This document shows positions 52,832 to 64,000 of a stretch of 64,000 bases of DNA, piece after piece. A program made the translations under genes and the position numbers. Position 1 is the first letter of the stretch. The number at the start of each line of letters is the position of its first letter. Location: assembly GCA_016794345.1 (NCBI GenBank), contig JAEUKE010000192.1, positions 1-64,000 on the forward strand, in the 5' to 3' direction. This DNA is from Myxococcales bacterium. Lineage in GTDB: Bacteria; Myxococcota_A; Polyangia; Polyangiales; Polyangiaceae. The notes below the pieces were generated by a model that did not search any database, was not told the origin of the DNA, and was given only the letters and a program-made list of their open reading frames with translations.

Positions 52832-55042
52832 TCAGCCGCCGGTCGGGAAACCGCGCTTGCGCAGCAGCGCCTTCACGTCCGGGTCGCGCCCGCGGAACTG
52901 GCGGTAGGCCTCGGCGCGGTCTGTGGAGTTGCCGGGCGCGAGGATGAACTTGCGCATCTTGTCCGCGGTGGTCTTGTCGAAGACGTCCCCCGCGCTCGTG
53001 AAGGCGTCGCGCGTGTCCGCGTCCATCACCTCCGACCAGAGGTAGCTGTAGTAGCCCGCCGAATAGGAGTCGCTGGTGAAGAGGTGGTTGAACTGCGGGA
53101 GCCGATGCCGCATCACGACCTCGGTGGGGGCGCCGATTCGCTTCAGCGTGTCGCGCTCGAATGCGTCGGGGTCGACCACGCCGTCAGCGAGGGTGTGGAG
53201 CTCCATGTCGACGATGGCCGCGGAGAGATACTCGACCGTCGCATAGCCCTGGTTGAACGTGCTCGACTTCATGATCTTGTCGACGAGCGCTTGTGGCATC
53301 GGCTTGCCCGTCTTCGCGTGTTTCGCGAAGCGGTCGAGGATGGGCCTGGTCAGCACCCACATCTCGTGGACCTGCGAGGGGTATTCGACGAAGTCGCGCG
53401 GGGTCACGGCGAGGCCGGGGTAGCTCACCTCCGAGAGCAGGCCGTGCAGCGCGTGGCCGAACTCGTGGAAGAGCGTCTGCGCGTCGTCGAGCGAGATGAG
53501 CACGGGCTCACCCTTCGCGCCCTTGACGAAGTTGTTGTTGTTCGAGACGAGCGGCGTGCGCACCGTGCCCGTGAAGGTCTCGCGCCCCCGATAGTAGGTG
53601 GCCCAGGCGCCCGACCGCTTGTTCGCGCGCGCGAAATAGTCCCCATAAAAGAGGCCGACGTGTTTCCCGGCCTTGTCTTTGACCTCCCAGACGCGCACGC
53701 CCTCGAAGAACGTGGGGACCGTCCCGGTGATCTCGGTGAAGGTCAGGCCGTAGAGCTGCTCGGCCATGAAAAACGCCCCCGCGATCATGTTGTCGAGCTC
53801 GAAGTACGGCTTGATCTCGGATTGATCGAGGTCGTACTTCTTCTTGCGGACCTTGTCCGCGTAATGGAGGTAGTCCCACGGCTCGAACGCCGCGGCCTTG
53901 CCCGCGTCCTTCTCGAGGAGCGGCTTCATGTCGGCCACCTCCTCCTTCACGCGCAGGACGGCCGCCGGCCAGACCTTCATCATCAGCTCGCGCGCCTTGG
54001 CCGGGTCCTTCGCCATGGTGTCGGACATGCGCCAATGCGCATGGGACGCGTACCCGAGGAGCTTGGCGCGCTCGGCGCGGAGCTTCACGATCTTGGCGAT
54101 GATGGCATTGGTGTCGTTCGCGCCGCCGTTGTCGCCGCGGCTCTTGAATGCCTTCCAGACCTTCTCGCGGAGATCGCGGCGCGAAGACGCCGCGAGGAAC
54201 GGATCGACGCTCGACCGTGTGTTGGAGACGACCCATTTCCCTTCCAGGCCCTTCTCCTTGGCCGCGGCGGCGTAGCTCGCCTTGAGCGAGTCGGGCAGGC
54301 CCGCCAGGTCCTCCTTCTTCTCGAGGACGACCCAGGTGTTCTCGTCCGCGAGGACCTTGTTGCCGAAGTCCGAGAAGGCCACCGCGAGCTCCTGGTTGAT
54401 CTCGCCCAGGCGCTTCTTCTGGTCGGCGTCGAGCTTCGCGCCGGCGCGCACGAAGGCGTCGTACGTCCGCTCGACGAGGCGCTTCTTCTCGGCGTCGAGC
54501 GAGGCGCGAGCCTCGTACACCGCCGCCACGCGAGCGAAGAGCGGGCCGTTGAAGACGATCTTGTCGCGGGCCTCGGCGATCTTCGGCGACCACTCGCGAT
54601 CGACGGCCTGCACGTCCGGCGTGTTGAGGTTCGACGTGAGCACACCGAAGAGCGTCTCGGCGCGGTCCTGGTGGCGGCCCGAGTCCTCGAGCGGAACGAT
54701 CGTGTTGTCGAACGTCGCCGGCTCCGGGTTCGTGGCGATGACGTCGATCTCCGCCAGCATGACCGCGAGCCCGGCCTCGAACGCCTTGGGGAACGGCTCC
54801 GCCTTGACGCCGGCCCACGGGGGCACGCCGCCGAACGGGCCGCTCCAGACCGCGAGGGTGGGGTTCTTGTCCGCCGCCTCGCGCAGGCGGGCCACCTCCG
54901 ACTTGGCGGCGGCGTGACGCGCGGCCGCGTCCTCCGCGGGCTTGGCCGAGGACGGCGTGGCGGTGGGCTGGGTGGTGGCGGAGGGAGAGGCCGAGCAGGC
55001 CAGAAGGACGACGCCGAGCGTCGCGGTCACGATCGTGCGCAT
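52832..55042 (-). CDS. M3-family metallopeptidase lipoprotein
   Basis: A 736-residue oligopeptidase. The zinc motif HEFGH has His526, Glu527 and His530, with the further Glu ligand in the FVEYPSQVHE segment. The overall pattern is that of M3 oligopeptidases (thimet oligopeptidase/Dcp type). The N-terminus is a signal peptide ending in LLAC (lipobox), so unlike the cytosolic OpdA/Dcp it is probably anchored in the periplasm or outer membrane and degrades short peptides there. It is on the same strand as the EamA gene 31 bp upstream. The length is normal. Confidence 0.92.
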   Translation of the reverse strand: MRTIVTATLGVVLLACSASPSATTQPTATPSSAKPAEDAAARHAAAKSEVARLREAADKNPTLAVWSGPFGGVPPWAGVKAEPFPKAFEAGLAVMLAEIDVIATNPEPATFDNTIVPLEDSGRHQDRAETLFGVLTSNLNTPDVQAVDREWSPKIAEARDKIVFNGPLFARVAAVYEARASLDAEKKRLVERTYDAFVRAGAKLDADQKKRLGEINQELAVAFSDFGNKVLADENTWVVLEKKEDLAGLPDSLKASYAAAAKEKGLEGKWVVSNTRSSVDPFLAASSRRDLREKVWKAFKSRGDNGGANDTNAIIAKIVKLRAERAKLLGYASHAHWRMSDTMAKDPAKARELMMKVWPAAVLRVKEEVADMKPLLEKDAGKAAAFEPWDYLHYADKVRKKKYDLDQSEIKPYFELDNMIAGAFFMAEQLYGLTFTEITGTVPTFFEGVRVWEVKDKAGKHVGLFYGDYFARANKRSGAWATYYRGRETFTGTVRTPLVSNNNNFVKGAKGEPVLISLDDAQTLFHEFGHALHGLLSEVSYPGLAVTPRDFVEYPSQVHEMWVLTRPILDRFAKHAKTGKPMPQALVDKIMKSSTFNQGYATVEYLSAAIVDMELHTLADGVVDPDAFERDTLKRIGAPTEVVMRHRLPQFNHLFTSDSYSAGYYSYLWSEVMDADTRDAFTSAGDVFDKTTADKMRKFILAPGNSTDRAEAYRQFRGRDPDVKALLRKRGFPTGG

Positions 55043-55073
55043 GCCGCTCTCTTTTCCGCGCGCTGCTCCGCCG

Positions 55074-55979
55074 TCAAGCGCGGGCGGCCCGCGCGCCCGC
55101 GCTGGCGGAAGAGACCGCGAGCACGGTGCCCGCGCCGATGACCAGGACCGAGCCGACGATCTGCGGCAAATCAGGCCTTTCGTGGAGGAAGACGACCGAC
55201 CCGACGAACCCCATCACCGTCCCGATGTAGCCGACCGCGCCGAGCCTCGCCGCCTCCGTGAGGGCGTACGCGCGCGTCATGGCGAGCTGCGCGACACCCC
55301 CTGACAGTCCCGTCACCAAGAGCCAGCCCGCGTCCTCGAGCGTGGGAACGCGGAACGAGAAGACGCCGAGCACCGCGTGCGCGACGAACGCGACGAGACC
55401 AAAGTGGAGCGCGATGGCCTCCGCGCTCTCCGGGGTGCCGCCCTCGCTACCGCTCCGCATCATGCGGAGGAACATCATCGCCAGAGCGGAGAACACCGCG
55501 GCCAGGAGCGCGCAGATGGCCGGCCACGCAGCCACGTCGAGGTGGGTGCCCGCCACGAGCACCACGCCGGAGAAAGCCACGAGGAGGACCCCCCAGAGCA
55601 CGCGCCCCGGCTCCTCACCCAGGATGCGCGGCGAGAGGAGCGCGATGAAGAGCGGCGCGGTCGCGAAGAGCGTGACCGCGGTGCTCACGCCGAGCTCGGG
55701 GGACGACACGGCATAGAAGGTCGAGAGCATGGCGCCGGTGCCCAGGAGGGAACGCGCCCACGAGAGTCCGCGGCGCTTGGTCTTGAGCGGCGAACGGCGA
55801 TGGAGCGCGACCAAGAGCGCGACACAGGCCCCGACCAGCGCGCGCGTGCCGCCGACGGTCGTCCACGAGGCGGAGCGCGAAGCCAGGCGCGCCGCGATCG
55901 TCATCACGGCGAAGAGAGTGTTGGCGAACGTGACCCAAGCGAGGCCGCGCAGCGCCGACGAGCGACTTGGGGTCGGCAC
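55074..55979 (-). CDS. EamA/DMT family transporter
   Basis: A 301-residue protein with about ten hydrophobic segments in two similar halves, the EamA (drug/metabolite transporter) layout. The segments LSTFYAVSSPELGVSTAVTLFATAPLFIALLSP and LLVTGLSGGVAQLAMTRAYALTEAARLG are the family-typical helix pairs. It probably exports amino acids or other small metabolites. It starts 38 bp after the last his gene on the same strand and may be read from it, but nothing shows a histidine substrate. Confidence 0.85.
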   Translation of the reverse strand: MPTPSRSSALRGLAWVTFANTLFAVMTIAARLASRSASWTTVGGTRALVGACVALLVALHRRSPLKTKRRGLSWARSLLGTGAMLSTFYAVSSPELGVSTAVTLFATAPLFIALLSPRILGEEPGRVLWGVLLVAFSGVVLVAGTHLDVAAWPAICALLAAVFSALAMMFLRMMRSGSEGGTPESAEAIALHFGLVAFVAHAVLGVFSFRVPTLEDAGWLLVTGLSGGVAQLAMTRAYALTEAARLGAVGYIGTVMGFVGSVVFLHERPDLPQIVGSVLVIGAGTVLAVSSASAGARAARA

Positions 55980-56017
55980 GCCGACCAGGTAGCACGGATG
56001 AAACCGTGCGCAACGCG

Positions 56018-56623
56018 TCAGCTCTTCGCGCGCGCCTCGAGCACCTTGCGCACCTCGTCGAAGCCTATGCCGGCCGCGCGGAGCGCCACCATGACGTGAT
56101 AGACGACGTCCGCTGCCTCTTCCGCGGCGCGCGCCTGGTCGCCGTCCGCCAAGGCAACCACGAGCTCGCTCGCCTCCTCGCCGATCTTCTTCAGCCGGAG
56201 GTTGCGGTCGGCGAGCAACCGGCGCGTGTACGACGGCCTGGCCGCGCCGTCCTCCGGAGCTGCGGCGCGCGCCGCGATTGTCGCGTCCAGCGCTCGGAGC
56301 GCGTCGAGGGGCGGGTCACCGAAGCAGGTGACCTGCCCGGTGTGACACGCGGGGCCCGCGGGCTCCACGCGCGCGAGGATCGCGTCGGAGTCACAGTCCG
56401 CCGAGAGGTCGACGACGCGCATGACGTTCCCGCTCGTCTCGCCCTTCTTCCAGAGACCCCGCCGGCGTGAGAAGAAATGGAGCTCGCCGGTCGCCAGCGT
56501 CCTCTCGATGGCCTCCCGATTGGCGAAGGCCACCATGAGCACCGCGCCTGTCGACGCGCCCTGCGCGACGACGCTGACGAGGCCGTTACCCTTCTCGAAG
56601 TCGATCGTCTCGATGTCGATCAC
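56018..56623 (-). CDS. hisIE: bifunctional phosphoribosyl-AMP cyclohydrolase/phosphoribosyl-ATP pyrophosphatase
   Basis: A 201-residue fusion from GTG 56623 with a GAGGG ribosome site. The HisI half has CDSDAILARVEPAGPACHTGQVTCF, holding the zinc and metal cysteines (CHTG...C). The HisE half has RLKKIGEEASELVVAL and the acidic EEAADVVYHVMV. Together they do the second and third steps of histidine synthesis. It is the last gene of the his operon and overlaps hisN by 4 bp. Confidence 0.95.
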   Translation of the reverse strand: MIDIETIDFEKGNGLVSVVAQGASTGAVLMVAFANREAIERTLATGELHFFSRRRGLWKKGETSGNVMRVVDLSADCDSDAILARVEPAGPACHTGQVTCFGDPPLDALRALDATIAARAAAPEDGAARPSYTRRLLADRNLRLKKIGEEASELVVALADGDQARAAEEAADVVYHVMVALRAAGIGFDEVRKVLEARAKS

Positions 56624-57414
56624 GTTTCCCTCTGCACCGGCACACCCAGGATCTCGCGTGCGGCACCGGCCACCGCACGATTGGTCGCGACGAGGCCGCG
56701 GCCGAACCCGGTCCGCTTGCCGTCCCAGTCCGTGATGACGCCCCCCGCCTCCTCGATGATGGGAATGAAACACGCGGCGTCCCAGGGGCTGAGCCGCCCG
56801 TCCGTCATCAGCTCGGCGCGGCCGGTGGCGACGAGGTAATAGCCGAAGCAGTCGCCCCAGGTCCGCGCGAGCCGCGCGGCGCCTGCCAGCGAACGCCACG
56901 GCGCTGCGCACTCGGGCGCGTCCAGGAATCGCTCGTCCGTCGTCAGCACGAGCGCATCGGCGACGCTGCTGACGCTGGAGACGCCCGCGCGCCCGCCCTC
57001 CACCACGACGCCCGCGCCGGGGGCCGCCGCGATGGCCTCTGCCGTGACGGGGAACCGCGCCGCGCCGGCGAGGACGGTGTCGCCTTCCACGAGGGCCACG
57101 AGCGATCCCCAGAGCGGCGCGCCGGCGAGGAACGACTTGGTGCCGTCGATCGGGTCGATGCACCACTTGCGCTTGGCGTCCGGCCGCGTCTCGCCGAGCT
57201 CCTCGCCGAGCACGCCGTCCTCGGGGAAATAACGCTGGAGGAACGCACGGGCCGCCTGCTCCGAGGCACGGTCGGCGTGGGAGACGGGGGAGCCGTCCGC
57301 CTTGGTCTCGATGCGCAGCCGCTCGCCGCGCACGTGGGCCTTGTAATACGAGAGGGCGACGTCGCCGGTGAGCTTGGCGACCTCGATGGCTGCTTCCAGG
57401 AGGGATTGGGTCAT
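56620..57414 (-). CDS. hisN: histidinol-phosphatase, inositol-monophosphatase type
   Basis: A 264-residue member of the inositol monophosphatase superfamily. The metal-binding motifs GEELGE, DPIDGT and [15 protein letters not shown] are intact. In an operon with all other his genes, and with HisB here lacking the N-terminal phosphatase, its role is histidinol-phosphate phosphatase (HisN), as in actinobacteria. ATG 57414 overlaps hisF by 4 bp and the stop overlaps hisIE by 4 bp. The assignment of substrate rests on context. Confidence 0.9.
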
Positions 57415-58202
57415 GTCGTCGACTCTCCGCGAATGGGGACGCCTCGTGCCCGCGCTTCCATCTTGATGGATGAGACCGTCGTGCGCCCGTCGTGGACGAT
57501 CCCCGCGACGAGCGCTGCGTCCGCGCCCGTGCGGACGAGGGCCTCGGCGACGTGGGCGGGGCTCCCGGCGCCGCCCGACGCGACGACGGGTACGCTGACT
57601 GCAGAGGAGACCGCGCTCGTCAGCTCGAGCTCGTAGCCGGTCTGACTGCCGTCTCGATCGATGCTGGTGAGGAGGATCTCGCCTGCGCCGAGGGACACAC
57701 CGCGCTTCGCCCATTCGATCGCGTCGAGCTCGGTGGCGCGGCGGCCGCCGTGGGTGAAGACGCGGTACCCGGAGGGCACCGCGTCGCTCGGCGATTCGCG
57801 CTTCGCGTCGATGCTGAGGACGACACACTGGGCGCCGAAGCGCAGGGAGGCGCGCGTGAGCAGGTCGGGATCGGCGACGGCTGCCGTGTTCACGGCGACC
57901 TTGTCCGCCCCGGCGCGGAGGACACGCGCCACGTCCTCCACGGTGCGCACGCCGCCCCCCACCGTGAGCGGCACGAACAGGACCTCCGCGGTGCGCCTCA
58001 CGACGTCGAGCATGGTATCGCGGCCCTCGTTGCTCGCCGAGACGTCGAGGAACACGACCTCGTCGGCGCCCTCCGCCTCGTACCGCGCCGCGAGAGCGAC
58101 GGGATCCCCGACGTCGCGCAGACCTTCGAACCGAACGCCCTTCACGACTCGACCGCGGTCGACGTCGAGGCAGACGACGATCCGTCGCAACAGGGCGCTC
58201 AC
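57411..58202 (-). CDS. hisF: imidazole glycerol phosphate synthase cyclase subunit
   Basis: A 263-residue beta/alpha barrel. The catalytic Asp11 is in [12 protein letters not shown], and the second acid is in LSIDAKR. The phosphate loops GGGVRT and SGGAGS are present. With HisH it makes imidazole glycerol phosphate and AICAR from PRFAR and ammonia. GTG 58202 overlaps hisB by 4 bp (GTGA). Confidence 0.97.
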
Positions 58203-58762
58203 GGCACGTCCTCCTCCACGAGCTCGACGGCGCCCTTGGTGCTGAAGATCTCGCCCCCCGTGTCGGCGAGCGCCTGACGCAGGGCGAGCCCGGTCGCCTT
58301 GAACGCGGCCTCGATGACGTGGTGACGGTCCTTGCCTCGCAGCACGCGGACATGCAGGCTCGCGCCGAGCGAGTCCGCGAGGGACCGCAGCACGTGGGTG
58401 TAGAGCCGGTTCGGGAGCTCGCCCTCGAAGTAGGAGCGTCCCCCCACGTCGATGACCGCCTGCACCAGCGCGTCGTCCATCGGGATCGTCCGCTCACCAT
58501 AACGCGCGGCGGCGGCCGGAGTGATGCTGCGCACCGCTCGACCCAGCGCTATCGCCACGTCTTCCATGATGTGGTGACGAAGATCGCCCTCCGCACGCAG
58601 CCTGAGATCGAGGCCGCCATAACGAGCGAGCGCGGTCAACATGTGATCGAAGAACGGGAGCGTCGTCGACACCTCGACGTGACCGAGCCCGCGCTCCGCG
58701 CTGCGCCCGACGACGATTTCGATCTGCGTCTCCTTCGACCTCCGGACGATCTTCTTCTTCAT
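58199..58762 (-). CDS. hisB: imidazoleglycerol-phosphate dehydratase
   Basis: A 187-residue monofunctional dehydratase with the manganese-binding motifs [12 protein letters not shown] and [10 protein letters not shown] and the FFDHML start segment. There is no HAD phosphatase domain, consistent with a separate hisN. It converts imidazole glycerol phosphate to imidazole acetol phosphate. ATG 58762 overlaps hisA by 4 bp. Confidence 0.97.
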
Positions 58763-59493
58763 GATTGCAGCTCCCCAGATGCCGATCCGTACCTCGCGGC
58801 GACGCGCTCGAGGTCGAGCGCGCCGGTGTAGAGCGCCATTCCGATCACGGCGCCGACGCAGCCGGCAGCCTCCAGCTCCTCCAGGTCCGCGAGGGAGCGG
58901 ATGCCACCCGAAGCGAAGAGCGGCGCGGCCGTGACGTCGCGCAGCTCCTGGTACAGCTTCACGTCCGGTCCGCCGAGCGCACCTTCCAGGTGCACGGCCG
59001 TGACGAGGAGACCGGCGAGCGGCAACGTCGCGAGCTCCTTCGCGAGGTCGGTCACGTGCCGGCCGGCTCCCTCCGCCCAGCCGCGAACGAGCACCTCCCG
59101 CTCGCGAACGTCGATCGCCACGACGACGCGCCCGGGCCGGCGCGCGGCGAGCTCCGCTCGGAATGTGGGGTCCTCCACCGCACGCGTCCCGACGACGACG
59201 CGCTCGGCGCCGAGATCGAGCAGCGCCTCGGCGCGCTCGATCGTGCGAACGCCGCCGCCCACCTGCACGACGAGCCCGCTCTCGCGGACCAACCGATCGA
59301 CGAGGCCGGTGTTGTCGCCGCGGCCCGTGGCCGCGTCCAGATCCACGACGTGGAGGGAGGAAAACCCCGCGTCGCGAAAGCGCCTCGCCTGACCGAGGAC
59401 GTCCGTGATCCTGACGCGCTCGGCGTCGTATTCGCCGCCGACGAGCTGGACACACGCGCCCTCCCGGAGATCGATCGCGGGCAGGGCGATCAT
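58759..59493 (-). CDS. hisA: ProFAR isomerase
   Basis: A 244-residue beta/alpha barrel. PAIDLREGACVQLVGG carries the first catalytic Asp. GGGVRT and SGGIRS are the two phosphate-binding loops. It isomerises ProFAR to PRFAR in the fourth step of the pathway. It overlaps hisH and hisB by 4 bp each. Confidence 0.97.
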   Translation of the reverse strand: MIALPAIDLREGACVQLVGGEYDAERVRITDVLGQARRFRDAGFSSLHVVDLDAATGRGDNTGLVDRLVRESGLVVQVGGGVRTIERAEALLDLGAERVVVGTRAVEDPTFRAELAARRPGRVVVAIDVREREVLVRGWAEGAGRHVTDLAKELATLPLAGLLVTAVHLEGALGGPDVKLYQELRDVTAAPLFASGGIRSLADLEELEAAGCVGAVIGMALYTGALDLERVAARYGSASGELQS

Positions 59494-60086
59494 GTCGTCA
59501 CCTCACGCACGATCGTGCCCAAGAGCGCGACTCCCTCCGCCGAGCTCTTCTCGGGGTGGAACTGGCAGCCCACCGTGTTCGCGTGCCGAACGACGGCGGG
59601 GAACGTGTCCCCTTCCAACGTGGTCGTCGCCAGGACGTCCTCCTGCCGCTCCGCGCGGCAGGCGAACGAATGGGCGTAGTAGACGGCCCGCGGCCAGGGC
59701 CACGCGGGAGCGTGCGGCGCCGGACGGACGGGGCTCCACCCCATGTGTGGGGTGCGCGCCGTCGCGAGCTTGGTCACGCGGCCGGGGACGAGGCCGATTC
59801 CGTCGCCCTCCCCTTCTTCGCTGCTCTCGAAGAGGAGCTGCATCCCGAGGCAGACCCCGATGCACGGGAAGCCGTCCGCCAGGGCCTTGCGGATCTCCCC
59901 ACGAAACGAGGCGAGCCGCGTGGCCGCAGGCGTGAATGCGCCGACGCCTGGCAACACGACGAGCTCGCCGTCGAGCGCGCGCGACACGTCGGTCTCGACG
60001 ACGACCTCGGCATTCGTCGCGGCGGCGAGCGCCTTCTCGAGCGAGTGCAGGTTGCCCACGCCGAGATCGAGGAGGGTGATTCGCAT
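59490..60086 (-). CDS. hisH: imidazole glycerol phosphate synthase amidotransferase subunit
   Basis: A 198-residue class I glutamine amidotransferase. The nucleophile is Cys79 in GVCLGMQLLF and the partner acids are His177 and Glu179 in FHPEKS. It supplies ammonia to HisF. ATG 60086 shares one base with the hisC stop (TGATG). Confidence 0.97.
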   Translation of the reverse strand: MRITLLDLGVGNLHSLEKALAAATNAEVVVETDVSRALDGELVVLPGVGAFTPAATRLASFRGEIRKALADGFPCIGVCLGMQLLFESSEEGEGDGIGLVPGRVTKLATARTPHMGWSPVRPAPHAPAWPWPRAVYYAHSFACRAERQEDVLATTTLEGDTFPAVVRHANTVGCQFHPEKSSAEGVALLGTIVREVTT

Positions 60087-61153
60087 CAGAGCACCTCGCG
60101 AAGCGCGGCGACCGCGGGCGCCATGAGCTCCCACGGGCCGATCGAGATGCGGAGGGCGTCGCCGATTCCGGCCAGGCCTTCGAATGGTCGAACCGCCACG
60201 CCCTTCTCCCGGAGCGCGGCCGCCTTGGCCTTGGCGCCCGAGATCGGGACGAGCACGAAGTTCGACGACGTCGGCAAGGGCGCCAGCCCGAGCTCCTCGA
60301 GCGCGCGAATGAATGGATCACGCGCCGCGACGACCTCCGCGATGCCCCGCTCGACCCAGGCCCGATCGTGATCGATGGCGGCGACGGCCATTCGCTCGGC
60401 GAGCCCGGTGACCTTGTAGGGACCGCGCGACTTCTCGACCTCCGCCACGAGCTCGGGCGCGCCGACCGCGTACCCCACGCGCAGACCGGCCATTCCGAAG
60501 GCCTTGGAGAGGGTACGCGCGACGAGGAGCCGGCCCTCGCCCTTGGCGCGGCGAACCAGAGACTCCCCCGCGTATTCGACGTAGGCCTCGTCGACGATCA
60601 CGAGCCCCGGCGCCGCCTGGATGACGTGTTCGATCGCCTCCCGCGAGGCGAGCGTGCCGGTCGGGTTGTTCGGCGTACAGACGTAGATGATCTTGGCCTT
60701 CGTCGCGAGGAGCCCCTCCGCGTCGATATCGTACCCGCGGTCCGAGCCGAGCAGCGGCACGGGCTTCGGCACGAGGCCGTTCATGTGCCCGAAATACGGG
60801 AGCATCGCGAAGGTCGGCTCGGGGAAAGCGAGCGCGTCACCCGTCTCGGCGAACGCGCGGATCGCCGAGTCGAGCACGTCGTCGCTGCCGCAGCCGGTCA
60901 CGATCTCGTCCGGGCCCACACCCAGCCAATCCGACAGGGCTCGCTTGAGATCGGCGCCATAGTGGCTCGGGTAACGCGCGTAGATCTCCGGGCCGGCGTC
61001 TCGAGCGACGGCGAGCGCGGCAGGCGGGACGCCGCGCTGGTTCGTGTTGTCGGAGAGGTCGAGGGCGACCGGAGCCCGCACCGACGTGTAGAGGCTCATC
61101 CGGCGGTAGCTCGGCCGGACGAGGTCGGCCGCGCGAGGTTTGTCTGCGGTCAT
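60086..61153 (-). CDS. hisC: histidinol-phosphate aminotransferase
   Basis: A 355-residue fold-type I PLP enzyme. Lys217 in RTLSKAFGMAGLRVG binds PLP. NPTG, VDEAYVEYAG and LSDNTNQ are the family motifs. It transaminates imidazole acetol phosphate to histidinol phosphate. It overlaps hisD by 4 bp. Confidence 0.96.
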   Translation of the reverse strand: MTADKPRAADLVRPSYRRMSLYTSVRAPVALDLSDNTNQRGVPPAALAVARDAGPEIYARYPSHYGADLKRALSDWLGVGPDEIVTGCGSDDVLDSAIRAFAETGDALAFPEPTFAMLPYFGHMNGLVPKPVPLLGSDRGYDIDAEGLLATKAKIIYVCTPNNPTGTLASREAIEHVIQAAPGLVIVDEAYVEYAGESLVRRAKGEGRLLVARTLSKAFGMAGLRVGYAVGAPELVAEVEKSRGPYKVTGLAERMAVAAIDHDRAWVERGIAEVVAARDPFIRALEELGLAPLPTSSNFVLVPISGAKAKAAALREKGVAVRPFEGLAGIGDALRISIGPWELMAPAVAALREVL

Positions 61154-62454
61154 CGTCGAGCTCCTTCCTCGGTGAACGCGGCGGCGGCGGCGGCGTGCGC
61201 CGGCAGGCCCTCGGCGCGCGCGAGGAGGGCGACGTCACCCGCCATGGTGGCGGCGGCGGCGCGGTCGACGCGCTGGTAGGTCGTCCACCTCACGAAGTCC
61301 TGCGTCGAGAGCCCCGAGAAGCTCCGCGCCGCGCCGGCCGTCGGGAGCACGTGGTTGCCGCCTGTCATGTAGTCACCGAAGGCGACCGACGACCCGTCAC
61401 CATAAAACACGGTCCCGGCGTGGAGCACCCGATCGAGGACCGAAGCGGGATCGCGCACGGCGAGGAGCAGGTGCTCGGCGGCGTACGCGGCGGCGAAGGG
61501 CCAGGCCTCGTCGAGCGAGCGAATCGACAGGATCGCCCCGCGAGAGCCGAGCGCCGCCGCCACGACCTCACGTTTCTCGGGCTCGGAGGCGGCGAGCGCC
61601 CGAGCCACCCGCGAGGCGAGGTCGTCGCCCACGACGAGCGCGACGCAGCTCGCGTCCGGGTCGTGCTCGGCCTGGGCGAGCATCTCACGAGCGAGGTGCT
61701 CGGGGTCCGCGCCCTCGTCGGCGATGACGAGGATCTCGCTGGGCCCCGCGGGCGCGTCGATCCCGACGGAGCCCGCGACCTGACGCTTGGCCTCGGCGAC
61801 GTACGCGTTCCCGGGCCCGACGATGCGATCGACCTTCGGAACCGTGGCGGTGCCGAAGGCGAGCGCGGCGACGGCCTGCGCGCCGCCGATCGCGAAGACC
61901 CGGGTCGCCCCCGCGATGGCGGCGGCGGCGAGCACGACGTCCGACGGGAGCCCGTTTGGCCCGGGCGGGCTGCAGACGACGATGTCGCGGACCCCGGCGA
62001 CGCGCGCAGGGACGACACCCATGAGCACGCTGCTCGGGTAGGCGGCGCGCCCGCCCGGCGCATAGACCCCGACGGCCGCGAGCGGATCGGGGCGGCGACC
62101 GACGAGCACGCCGGGCTCCACCTCGACCTCGGTCCGCGCCGGGAGAAACGCCCGGTGCACCGTCTCGAGGTTCCTCTTCGCACGCTCGAGCGCGCGGACG
62201 ATGCTCGGGTCCAGCCCGCCGACGGCGCGGGCCATCTCGGAGCGCGACACCTCGAGCGCGCGGAGCTCGACGCGGTCGAAGTCCTTCGTGAACGCGACGA
62301 GCGCGTCGTCCCCTTCGGCTCGGACGCGTTCGATGACGCGGCGAACGGAGTCGGCGACACGCGCCTCCGCGTCGGGGAGCGCGCGCTGGAGGATCGCGGC
62401 GCGCGCGGAGCTCGTCAGTTCGGCCAGCGGCCCGGTGAAGGCGACGGCGATCAT
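61150..62454 (-). CDS. hisD: histidinol dehydrogenase
   Basis: A 434-residue zinc enzyme. VGVYAPGGRAAYPSSVLM, GPGNAYVAEAK, AGPSEILVIAD and the QAEHDPDA metal/catalytic segment are all present, as is GGNHVLPT near the C-terminus. It performs the last two steps, histidinol to histidine with 2 NAD. ATG 62454 overlaps the hisG stop by 4 bp. Confidence 0.97.
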   Translation of the reverse strand: MIAVAFTGPLAELTSSARAAILQRALPDAEARVADSVRRVIERVRAEGDDALVAFTKDFDRVELRALEVSRSEMARAVGGLDPSIVRALERAKRNLETVHRAFLPARTEVEVEPGVLVGRRPDPLAAVGVYAPGGRAAYPSSVLMGVVPARVAGVRDIVVCSPPGPNGLPSDVVLAAAAIAGATRVFAIGGAQAVAALAFGTATVPKVDRIVGPGNAYVAEAKRQVAGSVGIDAPAGPSEILVIADEGADPEHLAREMLAQAEHDPDASCVALVVGDDLASRVARALAASEPEKREVVAAALGSRGAILSIRSLDEAWPFAAAYAAEHLLLAVRDPASVLDRVLHAGTVFYGDGSSVAFGDYMTGGNHVLPTAGAARSFSGLSTQDFVRWTTYQRVDRAAAATMAGDVALLARAEGLPAHAAAAAAFTEEGARR

Positions 62455-63350
62455 GGCACGAGCCTCTCGATGCGGGTCACGAGGATGCCTTCGCAGCCGA
62501 TCGCCTTCAGCCTCGCCACGATGCGGTAGATCTGCGCCTGCGGGACGACCGCGTGAACGGCCACGACCTCGCTGCTCGATCCGCCCACGTCGACCACCGT
62601 AGGGCCGGAGATGCCGGGCAACACCTCACGCACGGCGTCGAGCGCGCGGCGGGGGACGTTCGCCATCAGGTAACGTTGACCACGCGCGCGGACCACGCTC
62701 TCGAGGGCCATGCCGAGCTCGTCCACCGCCGCGGCGACGGCGGGATCGAGCGAGGCTCGCGGGCGGGTGACGAGGCGCGCAGAGGACTCGAGCACGGTGG
62801 CCACTTCGGTCAGGCCGTTCACGCGGAGCGTGCTGCCGGTCGAGACGAGGTCCACGATGGTGTCCGCGATGCCGAGGTGCGGCGCCACCTCCGCTGCGCC
62901 GCTCACGGGCACGACCTGCACCGATCGACCGCGGGCCTCGAAGAACTCCCGTGTCATCCGCGGGAACGCGGTGGCGACGCGCGCGCCGTCCGGGATCGAC
63001 TCGAGGCTCGGCTCGCCTTCCCGCAAACGCATCGCGACGACGAGACGGCAGCGGCCCATGCCCAGGTCGACGACGGAGTCGAGCGCGCGGCCGGACTCCG
63101 CGACGCAATCCCAGCCGGTGATGCCGGCGTCGGCGGCGCCGTCCGCCACGAACTCGGGGATGTCCTGCGCGCGCACGAAGAGCGCGGAGAACTCACCCCC
63201 GAGCGAGGCGACGAGGGCGCGGTCGTTTGACGCCCGGACCTCGAGGCCGGCGTCAGCCAGCGCGCTGCGCACGTCCTCCACGAGCCTTCCTTTGTTGGGC
63301 AAGGCGATCCGCGCTCGAGAGGGCACGACTGTCGATTCGTTTTTGCTCAC
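62451..63350 (-). CDS. hisG: ATP phosphoribosyltransferase, long form
   Basis: 299 residues from GTG 63350 with GAGGA 5 nt upstream. The catalytic domain shows IALPNKGRL, the DAGITGWD phosphoribose segment and DLVSTGSTLRVNGL. A C-terminal about 80-residue regulatory domain (QRYLMANVP...IYRIVARLKAIGCEGILV) is present, so this is the hexameric, histidine-inhibited long form that needs no HisZ. It commits PRPP and ATP to histidine. It is the first structural gene, behind a His-rich leader ORF. Confidence 0.97.
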   Translation of the reverse strand: MSKNESTVVPSRARIALPNKGRLVEDVRSALADAGLEVRASNDRALVASLGGEFSALFVRAQDIPEFVADGAADAGITGWDCVAESGRALDSVVDLGMGRCRLVVAMRLREGEPSLESIPDGARVATAFPRMTREFFEARGRSVQVVPVSGAAEVAPHLGIADTIVDLVSTGSTLRVNGLTEVATVLESSARLVTRPRASLDPAVAAAVDELGMALESVVRARGQRYLMANVPRRALDAVREVLPGISGPTVVDVGGSSSEVVAVHAVVPQAQIYRIVARLKAIGCEGILVTRIERLVP

Positions 63351-63373
63351 GTTGTCCTCGTCACCTGGAAAGA

Positions 63374-63408
63374 CAGAGTCGGCTGCGAAGCCGCAGGGTC
63401 CGCCGCAG
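63374..63408 (-). promoter_or_regulatory. candidate attenuator hairpins before hisG
   Basis: On the minus strand CTGCGGC occurs twice (63408-63402 and 63396-63390), and both copies begin with CTGCG, which can pair with CGCAG at 63387-63383. The nearer pairing gives a 5-bp stem with a GCTT loop followed by GACTCTGTCTTT, a weak terminator; the farther pairing would exclude it. This mutually exclusive pairing suits attenuation, but the U-tract is poor. Confidence 0.4.
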
Positions 63409-63466
63409 AGGGCGCCACCCAGCTGCCAAGACGTTTCCGGGCGAATCTCGAGGAGGGGTGAGGCCC

Positions 63467-63553
63467 TCAGCTCGTACCGTGGCGCGCCGACTCGCCCGAA
63501 AGGAGCGCGCCCCGGCAGCGATGATGCTGGTGATGGGCGACGCAGGCGAGCAT
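63467..63553 (-). CDS. hisL: his operon leader peptide (HHQHH)
   Basis: A 28-residue ORF from ATG 63553 to TGA 63467, not previously called. Residues 7-11 are HHQHH, four His codons in five, followed by an Arg/Ala/Ser tail with one more His. A ribosome site GAAGG lies 5 nt before the ATG. A consensus-like promoter (TTGACG-17-TAGCCT) ends 10 nt upstream. A 7-bp hairpin (63505-63511 with 63481-63487) begins 9 nt after the His codons, where a stalled ribosome would mask it. The ORF is 116 bp before hisG. This is the design of enterobacterial hisL, here in a myxobacterium-like genome. Confidence 0.75.
   Translation of the reverse strand: MLACVAHHQHHRCRGALLSGESARHGTS
63481..63511 (-). promoter_or_regulatory. 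pause-type hairpin inside the his leader
   Basis: Arms GGCGCGC and GCGCGCC (7 bp perfect) enclose a 17-nt loop and start 9 nt after the last of the clustered His codons. A ribosome stalled on these codons would cover or abut the 5' arm. Confidence 0.5.
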
Positions 63554-63563
63554 GACGGCCTTC

Positions 63564-63592
63564 AGGCTAGGAGGCGGAGCGCCCTCCGTCAA
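63564..63592 (-). promoter_or_regulatory. his operon promoter
   Basis: On the minus strand TTGACG (63592-63587) and TAGCCT (63569-63564) are separated by exactly 17 bp, a good sigma-70 promoter. It ends 10 nt before the leader-peptide ATG, so the transcript has a very short 5' leader. Confidence 0.7.
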
Positions 63593-63613
63593 GCACAGCC
63601 CCGAGCTCGGCGC

Positions 63614-64000
63614 TCAGTACAGACGCACGCGGCCGTCGAGCAAGGCGGCGCGCAGGCGAGGCAGCGCGCGCATCTCGTCGTCGAAGATGGCTCGCACGAC
63701 GGGCTCGAGCGCGTGGGTCGAGCCGATCGTCTGCCCGCAGATCTTCACGTGGACCGCGCGTGGATCCGTGATGCGACGGCCGATGCAGGAGACGAGGGTG
63801 ACCGCGACGTCGAGGGCGGTGTCGATCTCCGCAGCCGTGCGCGCGGCGATGCGCTCCGCCAGCAGACTGTAGAGCTTGCCGACGTGGCTCACCGGGTTCT
63901 TGCCGGCGGCTGCCTCCATGCACATGGGCCGGTACGGCGTGATCAAGCCGCTCGCGCGGTTGCCGCGGCCCACCTCGCCGTCGTCGCCCGACTCGGCCGA
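63614..64000 (-). CDS. archaeal-type S-adenosylmethionine synthetase (3' part)
   Basis: The C-terminal about 129 residues of a gene running off the window end. The sequence reads [33 protein letters not shown], then [12 protein letters not shown]. These are the conserved blocks of the archaeal-type methionine adenosyltransferase family (PF01941), not of bacterial MetK. It makes SAM from methionine and ATP. The his promoter begins 22 bp after its stop. An in-frame GTG at 63973 is inside the VGRGNR block and is not a start. Confidence 0.88.

Follow-up and report, generated by a model that had tools for sequence, protein, structure and literature searches.

A predicted histidine-sensing leader ahead of the his operon in a myxobacterium and its relatives

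The locus described here raises the question of whether a myxobacterium adjusts histidine biosynthesis by means of a leader peptide whose translation would report on the supply of histidine. The window, i.e. the whole stretch of 64,000 nucleotides that was analysed, belongs to a member of the Polyangiaceae and carries on its minus strand a his operon that starts with hisG (62,451..63,350), encoding a long-form HisG of 299 aa with the Pfam families PF01634 and PF08029. The genes hisD, hisC, hisH, hisA, hisB, hisF, an inositol-monophosphatase-like gene in the place of hisN, and hisIE follow on the same strand (56,018..62,454), and the place of hisC is taken by a class I/II aminotransferase according to Pfam. 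Thus, the Pfam assignments from hisG to hisIE bear out the first-pass annotation, which had placed a complete his operon after a leader. Just upstream of the leader, the minus strand encodes an AdoMet synthetase of the Pfam family PF01941 (63,614-64,000). This family of AdoMet synthetases is known mainly in archaea.

Directly upstream of hisG, a short open reading frame of 28 codons (63,467..63,553, minus strand, ATG at 63,553) encodes the putative leader peptide MLACVAHHQHHRCRGALLSGESARHGTS, followed by the stop codon. It contains the cluster CAT CAC CAG CAT CAT (HHQHH; 63,521..63,535), which is the proposed stalling site. The predicted promoter consists of the -35 box TTGACG (63,592-63,587) and the -10 box TAGCCT (63,569-63,564), which are separated by a 17-nt spacer, and the motif GAAGG (63,563-63,559) lies 5 nt before the ATG. 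A hairpin with a 7-bp stem formed by GGCGCGC (63,511-63,505) and GCGCGCC (63,487-63,481) spans 63,481..63,511; its 5' arm begins 9 nt past the last His codon, and CTGCG/CGCAG repeats are located further downstream on the minus strand. All of these elements had been listed by the first-pass annotation and were found in the sequence at their positions. Moreover, in the six frames of the 64-kb window no other open reading frame of 8-60 aa has four or more His residues within five codons.

Conservation of the leader in relatives had been named beforehand as a comparison that could refute the proposal, and its outcome depends on which loci are compared. In a first survey of hisG loci in 116 genomes of the order to which the window belongs, His-rich leaders were almost absent. 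This early negative result is explained by the fact that the surveyed loci carry a different HisG type, which is only about 40% identical to the HisG of the window. A valid comparison is therefore limited to loci with the window's HisG type, which share 62-76% identity. This type is present in the window's own genus (G489 and G490), in the three genomes G471-G473 of the genus g270 (76% identity) and, at 62-68% identity, in the Hyalangium versicolor family, where 71 of 96 genomes have it. Each of the 69 Myxococcaceae loci retrieved with this HisG type has an open reading frame with a His cluster ahead of hisG, as exemplified by the Hyalangium leader MRLCSIHHHHAHHRLGPDGTARRAHAWMNV. It is also present in five of the six Polyangiaceae genomes with this HisG type, namely in the window, the three g270 genomes (for instance MPRHPHHVHHHHHHHWVRGALRVDWLAHPGT) and G490 (MLACVVRIARSRRGEHDGHHHGDRGVR). 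The flanks of the His clusters are variable. Within the Polyangiaceae, the stretch HRCRGAL..SARHGTS of the window leader is similar to HRCRGAL..SAHPGTS of g270, and its start MLACV is identical to that of the G490 leader. The sixth genome, G489 from the window's genus, has no His leader, and another gene directly precedes its hisG (loci L138 and L032); to judge from the sequence, the regulatory region has been lost or replaced within one genus.

The codons themselves were compared in 54 distinct Myxococcaceae leaders that were aligned on the block HHHHAHH. His was found at 303 of the 324 codons of the six aligned His columns, with CAC as well as CAT being used in each of these columns. Judged by these columns, the His codons of the Myxococcaceae leaders are under selection. 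The window itself is a member of the sister group to the Myxococcaceae and has its own His clusters. For other HisG types, a similar filter matched only two of 135 loci, and a His leader is missing from 19 of 20 further genomes of the class, Anaeromyxobacter-like ones among them, whose HisG proteins are different again. Hence, the short open reading frame with a run of His codons that the first-pass annotation had recognised ahead of the biosynthetic operon is not confined to the window, and its conservation in relatives came out as anticipated.

The promoter is also kept at a fixed distance from the leader. The motif TTGAC is present before 66 of the 69 Myxococcaceae leaders, in 65 of these 66 at 35-38 nt from the start codon, and lies 36-39 nt before the start codon of all five Polyangiaceae leaders. 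A -10-like hexamer is found at the same place in relatives, such as CATAAT in g270 and TACTCA-like sequences in Myxococcaceae. Together with the usual sigma-70 spacing, the distance from TTGAC to the start codon indicates that transcription would begin at the leader start codon or within about three bases of it, and the leader peptide is therefore predicted to be leaderless or nearly so. The GAAGG of the window follows the -10 box but precedes the predicted transcription start, so that it is probably not part of the RNA. As a candidate for a conserved Shine-Dalgarno site it was rejected, since it has no counterpart in the relatives. Thus, of the ribosome-binding site proposed by the first-pass annotation the sequence is present, its role is not retained, and the promoter-to-start distance replaces the Shine-Dalgarno-started leader by a predicted leaderless one. 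A precedent is trpL of Sinorhizobium meliloti, whose attenuator RNA begins at the ATG of the leader open reading frame (PMC7298713). Like the trpL leader peptide, the myxobacterial one would be leaderless; the S. meliloti system senses tryptophan and was shown experimentally (PMC7298713), whereas the myxobacterial leader carries His codons and its start is predicted.

The RNA switch is most readily recognised in the Myxococcaceae. In 66 of the 69 leaders, a spacing of 6-12 nt separates the last His codon from GACGGG, and a terminator of the form CCCGTC..GACGGG with a T-run follows. The GACGGG of the leader is identical to the 3' arm of the terminator and can therefore pair with the 5' arm of the terminator instead. 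In ribosome-free folds, GACGGG is part of a hairpin with CATGCGCA..TGCGCATG as its outer stem, and this stem takes in His codons; a ribosome residing on these codons would release GACGGG. Furthermore, L171, L191 and L200, whose terminator hairpins differ in sequence from this motif, have different strands A and B (the leader strand and its partner), which are still complementary (-21 to -27 kcal/mol). As far as can be read from these loci, the Myxococcaceae leaders follow a textbook attenuation architecture, and the predicted permissive and repressive structures are clearly mutually exclusive.

For the lineage of the window, three strands on the minus strand are proposed to form the corresponding switch. 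Strand A (TTTCGGGCGAGTC; 63,489..63,501) lies inside the leader open reading frame, is enclosed by the 7-bp hairpin and can form 13 bp with strand B (TCCTCGAGATTCGCCCGGAAA; 63,434..63,454). Strand B may alternatively pair with strand C (TTTCCAGGTGACGAGGA; 63,355..63,371), a model element that contains the hisG ribosome-binding site CGAGGA. The hairpin would act as a protector of strand A, a role that is assigned by analogy with the arrangement in Myxococcaceae. Pairing energies suggest balanced alternatives in the window (A:B -23.1 vs B:C -21.4 kcal/mol) and in the related locus L136 (-21.6 vs -21.7 kcal/mol); the values are -21.6 and -19.2 kcal/mol in L137 and -15.6 and -21.3 kcal/mol in L135. 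In the locus of G490 (L139), which belongs to the window's genus, strands A and B form a perfect 12-bp pair that shuffled sequences reached in 2 of 300 and 7 of 300 cases, and strand B can also form 7 bp with a segment close to the start of hisG. By contrast, in the very GC-rich window neither A:B nor B:C was better than shuffled sequence, as evaluated with RNAduplex and a helix-only dynamic programme. Folding of the leader RNA with and without a ribosome footprint, a check that had been suggested at the outset, gave no clear change in the exposure of the hisG ribosome-binding site at equilibrium.

The A:B pair of L135 (GGACTGGT:ACCAGTCC) differs in both strands from that of L136 (GACGGGTC:GACCTGTC), with the pairing being kept. 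When the strands were swapped, strand A of L135 with strand B of L136 was weaker than both matched pairs, the reciprocal combination of L136 A with L135 B (-16.1) was not weaker than the matched L135 pair (-15.6), and one swapped B:C pair was stronger than the matched ones. Because the swap energies are mixed, compensation between L135 and L136 is not proven. The CTGCG/CGCAG repeats, for which alternative pairings had been proposed in the first-pass annotation, do exist; as a switch they were rejected, since they are not kept in the nearest relatives and strands A, B and C fit better.

How the switch would act on hisG in the window can be explained in different ways. A search for an intrinsic terminator, i.e. 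a G+C-rich hairpin with a T-run before hisG, yielded no convincing candidate in the window or in L135-L137. In the model that we prefer, pairing of strand B with strand C hides the hisG ribosome-binding site and the output is translational; for the window and its nearest relatives, our confidence in this model is evenly balanced. Its main rival retains the histidine-sensing leader and assigns the output to Rho-dependent termination, which would occur where the RNA is untranslated past the stop codon of the leader. Such an output would be in line with two observations: neither the window nor L135-L137 has a U-tract terminator, and the sequestration helix lacks statistical support in the window. 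However, L135, L136, L137 and the window all allow helices that cover the hisG Shine-Dalgarno sequence, and we consider Rho-dependent termination possible, though rather unlikely. Hence, the earlier suggestion that the mechanism may differ, being either translation-coupled or Rho-linked, holds for the window insofar as a convincing terminator is missing; of its two branches, translational coupling is the preferred one.

Termination could also be brought about in the window by a non-canonical intrinsic terminator, with a hairpin formed by CTGCGGCTTCGCAG or CGGCTTCGCAGCCG and followed by ACTCTGTCTTTCC. The 5-bp hairpin with its mildly T-rich tail is situated about 30-45 nt before hisG, and the homologous leaders of the Myxococcaceae do end in a terminator. 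The weak stem, the interrupted T-run, the fact that the element is not kept in L135-L137 and the lack of obvious complementarity to the leader open reading frame make this explanation, which had been put forward in the first-pass annotation, improbable. It is far less probable still that the His-rich open reading frame is a chance frame with no regulatory role. Short open reading frames are indeed common and the RNA structures of the window are not significant; yet the frame is unique of its kind in the window, 73 relatives have His-cluster leaders at this place with a fixed distance to the promoter, and only 2 of 135 loci with other HisG types pass a similar filter. We give a chance origin almost no credence.

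Irrespective of the type of output, it is very likely that the leader belongs to the class of histidine-sensing attenuators. The relatives' leaders, together with the terminators and antiterminators of the Myxococcaceae, support the first-pass claim of an attenuation-type leader ahead of hisG in a myxobacterium. According to the preferred mechanism, RNA polymerase would start at the leader start codon or within a few bases of it, and the ribosome would load at the 5' end of the RNA. When histidine is plentiful, the ribosome would pass the His codons, the protector hairpin would form and strand B would pair with strand C, so that the operon is switched off. If charged His-tRNA is scarce, the ribosome would instead stall on the His codons and mask this hairpin's 5' half. 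Strand A in the leader open reading frame could then capture strand B, thereby leaving strand C free and allowing expression of hisGDCHABFN-IE. In the Myxococcaceae, strand C would correspond to the 3' arm of the intrinsic terminator.

The HisG of the window is 62-68% identical to that of Myxococcaceae vs about 40% to that of most members of its own order, and in the HisG tree one branch with moderate support (94/87) parts the window group from the Myxococcaceae group. Since the HisG of the window is nearer to that of the Myxococcaceae than to that of its own order, transfer of the his operon may have taken place, or a few Polyangiaceae may have retained an old copy. Several large Myxococcaceae genomes have no PF01634 match at all, among them G501, G502 and G513 (8.8-10.5 Mb), although most of the family have HisG; these bacteria are possibly histidine auxotrophs, or the assemblies have gaps.

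His leaders were also observed outside this HisG lineage. Locus L233 (G637), with a 34% identical HisG, has the His leader MFGTLQHHRHHHP, whose His codons lie around locus position 990. It is followed by a 12-bp A:B pair of GGGGTCGGTGTC with GACACCGGCCCC and a strong terminator (ACCGGCC..GGCCGGT plus a T-run). Locus L101 (G067), whose HisG falls into another branch of the tree than that of the window, has the His leader MFRCSAYRHHHHHDSGR with His codons at locus position 976 and, before hisG, a 10-bp hairpin of AACGCCGGCC..GGTCGGCGTT plus a short T-run. These sequences suggest that the leaders of L233 and L101 have separate origins. Taken together, we tentatively propose, with somewhat less than even confidence, that a leaderless histidine attenuator is ancestral to the HisG lineage of the Myxococcaceae and some Polyangiaceae, that the sensor was preserved in this lineage, its output having changed between transcription termination and sequestration of the ribosome-binding site, and that at least one further HisG lineage (L233, perhaps L101) gained the sensor separately.

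On sequence grounds, the leader would work like the enterobacterial his attenuator and is a known kind of system. It shares with the enterobacterial hisL (RF00514) a short leader open reading frame that precedes hisG and carries a run of His codons, and the alternative RNA pairings set by the position of the ribosome, and in the Myxococcaceae members also the terminator output. In contrast to hisL, the myxobacterial leader has no Rfam match, is predicted to be leaderless and has the antiterminator strand inside the leader open reading frame, and the lineage of the window seems to lack the terminator. Indeed, positions 54,000-64,000 of the window gave no match to Rfam families, including RF00514 (His_leader), at the gathering threshold, and the loci L001, L135, L139, L165 and L184 gave none at E values up to 5.

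The view that such attenuation is known mainly in gammaproteobacteria proved too narrow. His-leader attenuators have been reported in Firmicutes, namely in the Bacillus cereus group, Peptostreptococcaceae and Erysipelotrichales (PMC9413887), and ahead of hisS and hisZ in bacilli (PMC2965389). As described there, the Firmicutes leaders resemble those of the myxobacteria in having leader-peptide His codons followed by alternative hairpins, which were predicted by comparative genomics; they differ in belonging to another phylum, in having three to five consecutive His codons vs up to seven in myxobacteria, and in that a leaderless start is not described in the passages concerned (PMC9413887; PMC2965389). 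In this comparison by description, no sequence relation was seen between the two groups of leaders. Attenuators in which the structure that forms late occludes the ribosome-binding site, which is the output proposed for the lineage of the window, are mentioned in general in one survey, though not for his genes of Myxococcota (PMC9413887). The His leaders covered by three surveys are from gammaproteobacteria and Firmicutes (PMC9413887; PMC2965389; PMC3766115); neither these surveys nor a full-text literature search yielded a His leader in Myxococcota, and older surveys may mention one.

One survey took the view that amino acid attenuators probably originated within the gammaproteobacteria and were transferred very few times (PMC3766115); Firmicutes were added by later work. 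The presence of a His leader matching no Rfam family across the Myxococcaceae and part of the Polyangiaceae supports a repeated origin of attenuators, which agrees with the initial suggestion that histidine-sensing attenuation is more widespread or was reinvented. Some of the relatives are laboratory organisms. Moreover, since the leader is predicted to be leaderless and its output apparently changed while the sensor remained homologous, it would provide a natural series for studying the evolution of attenuators.
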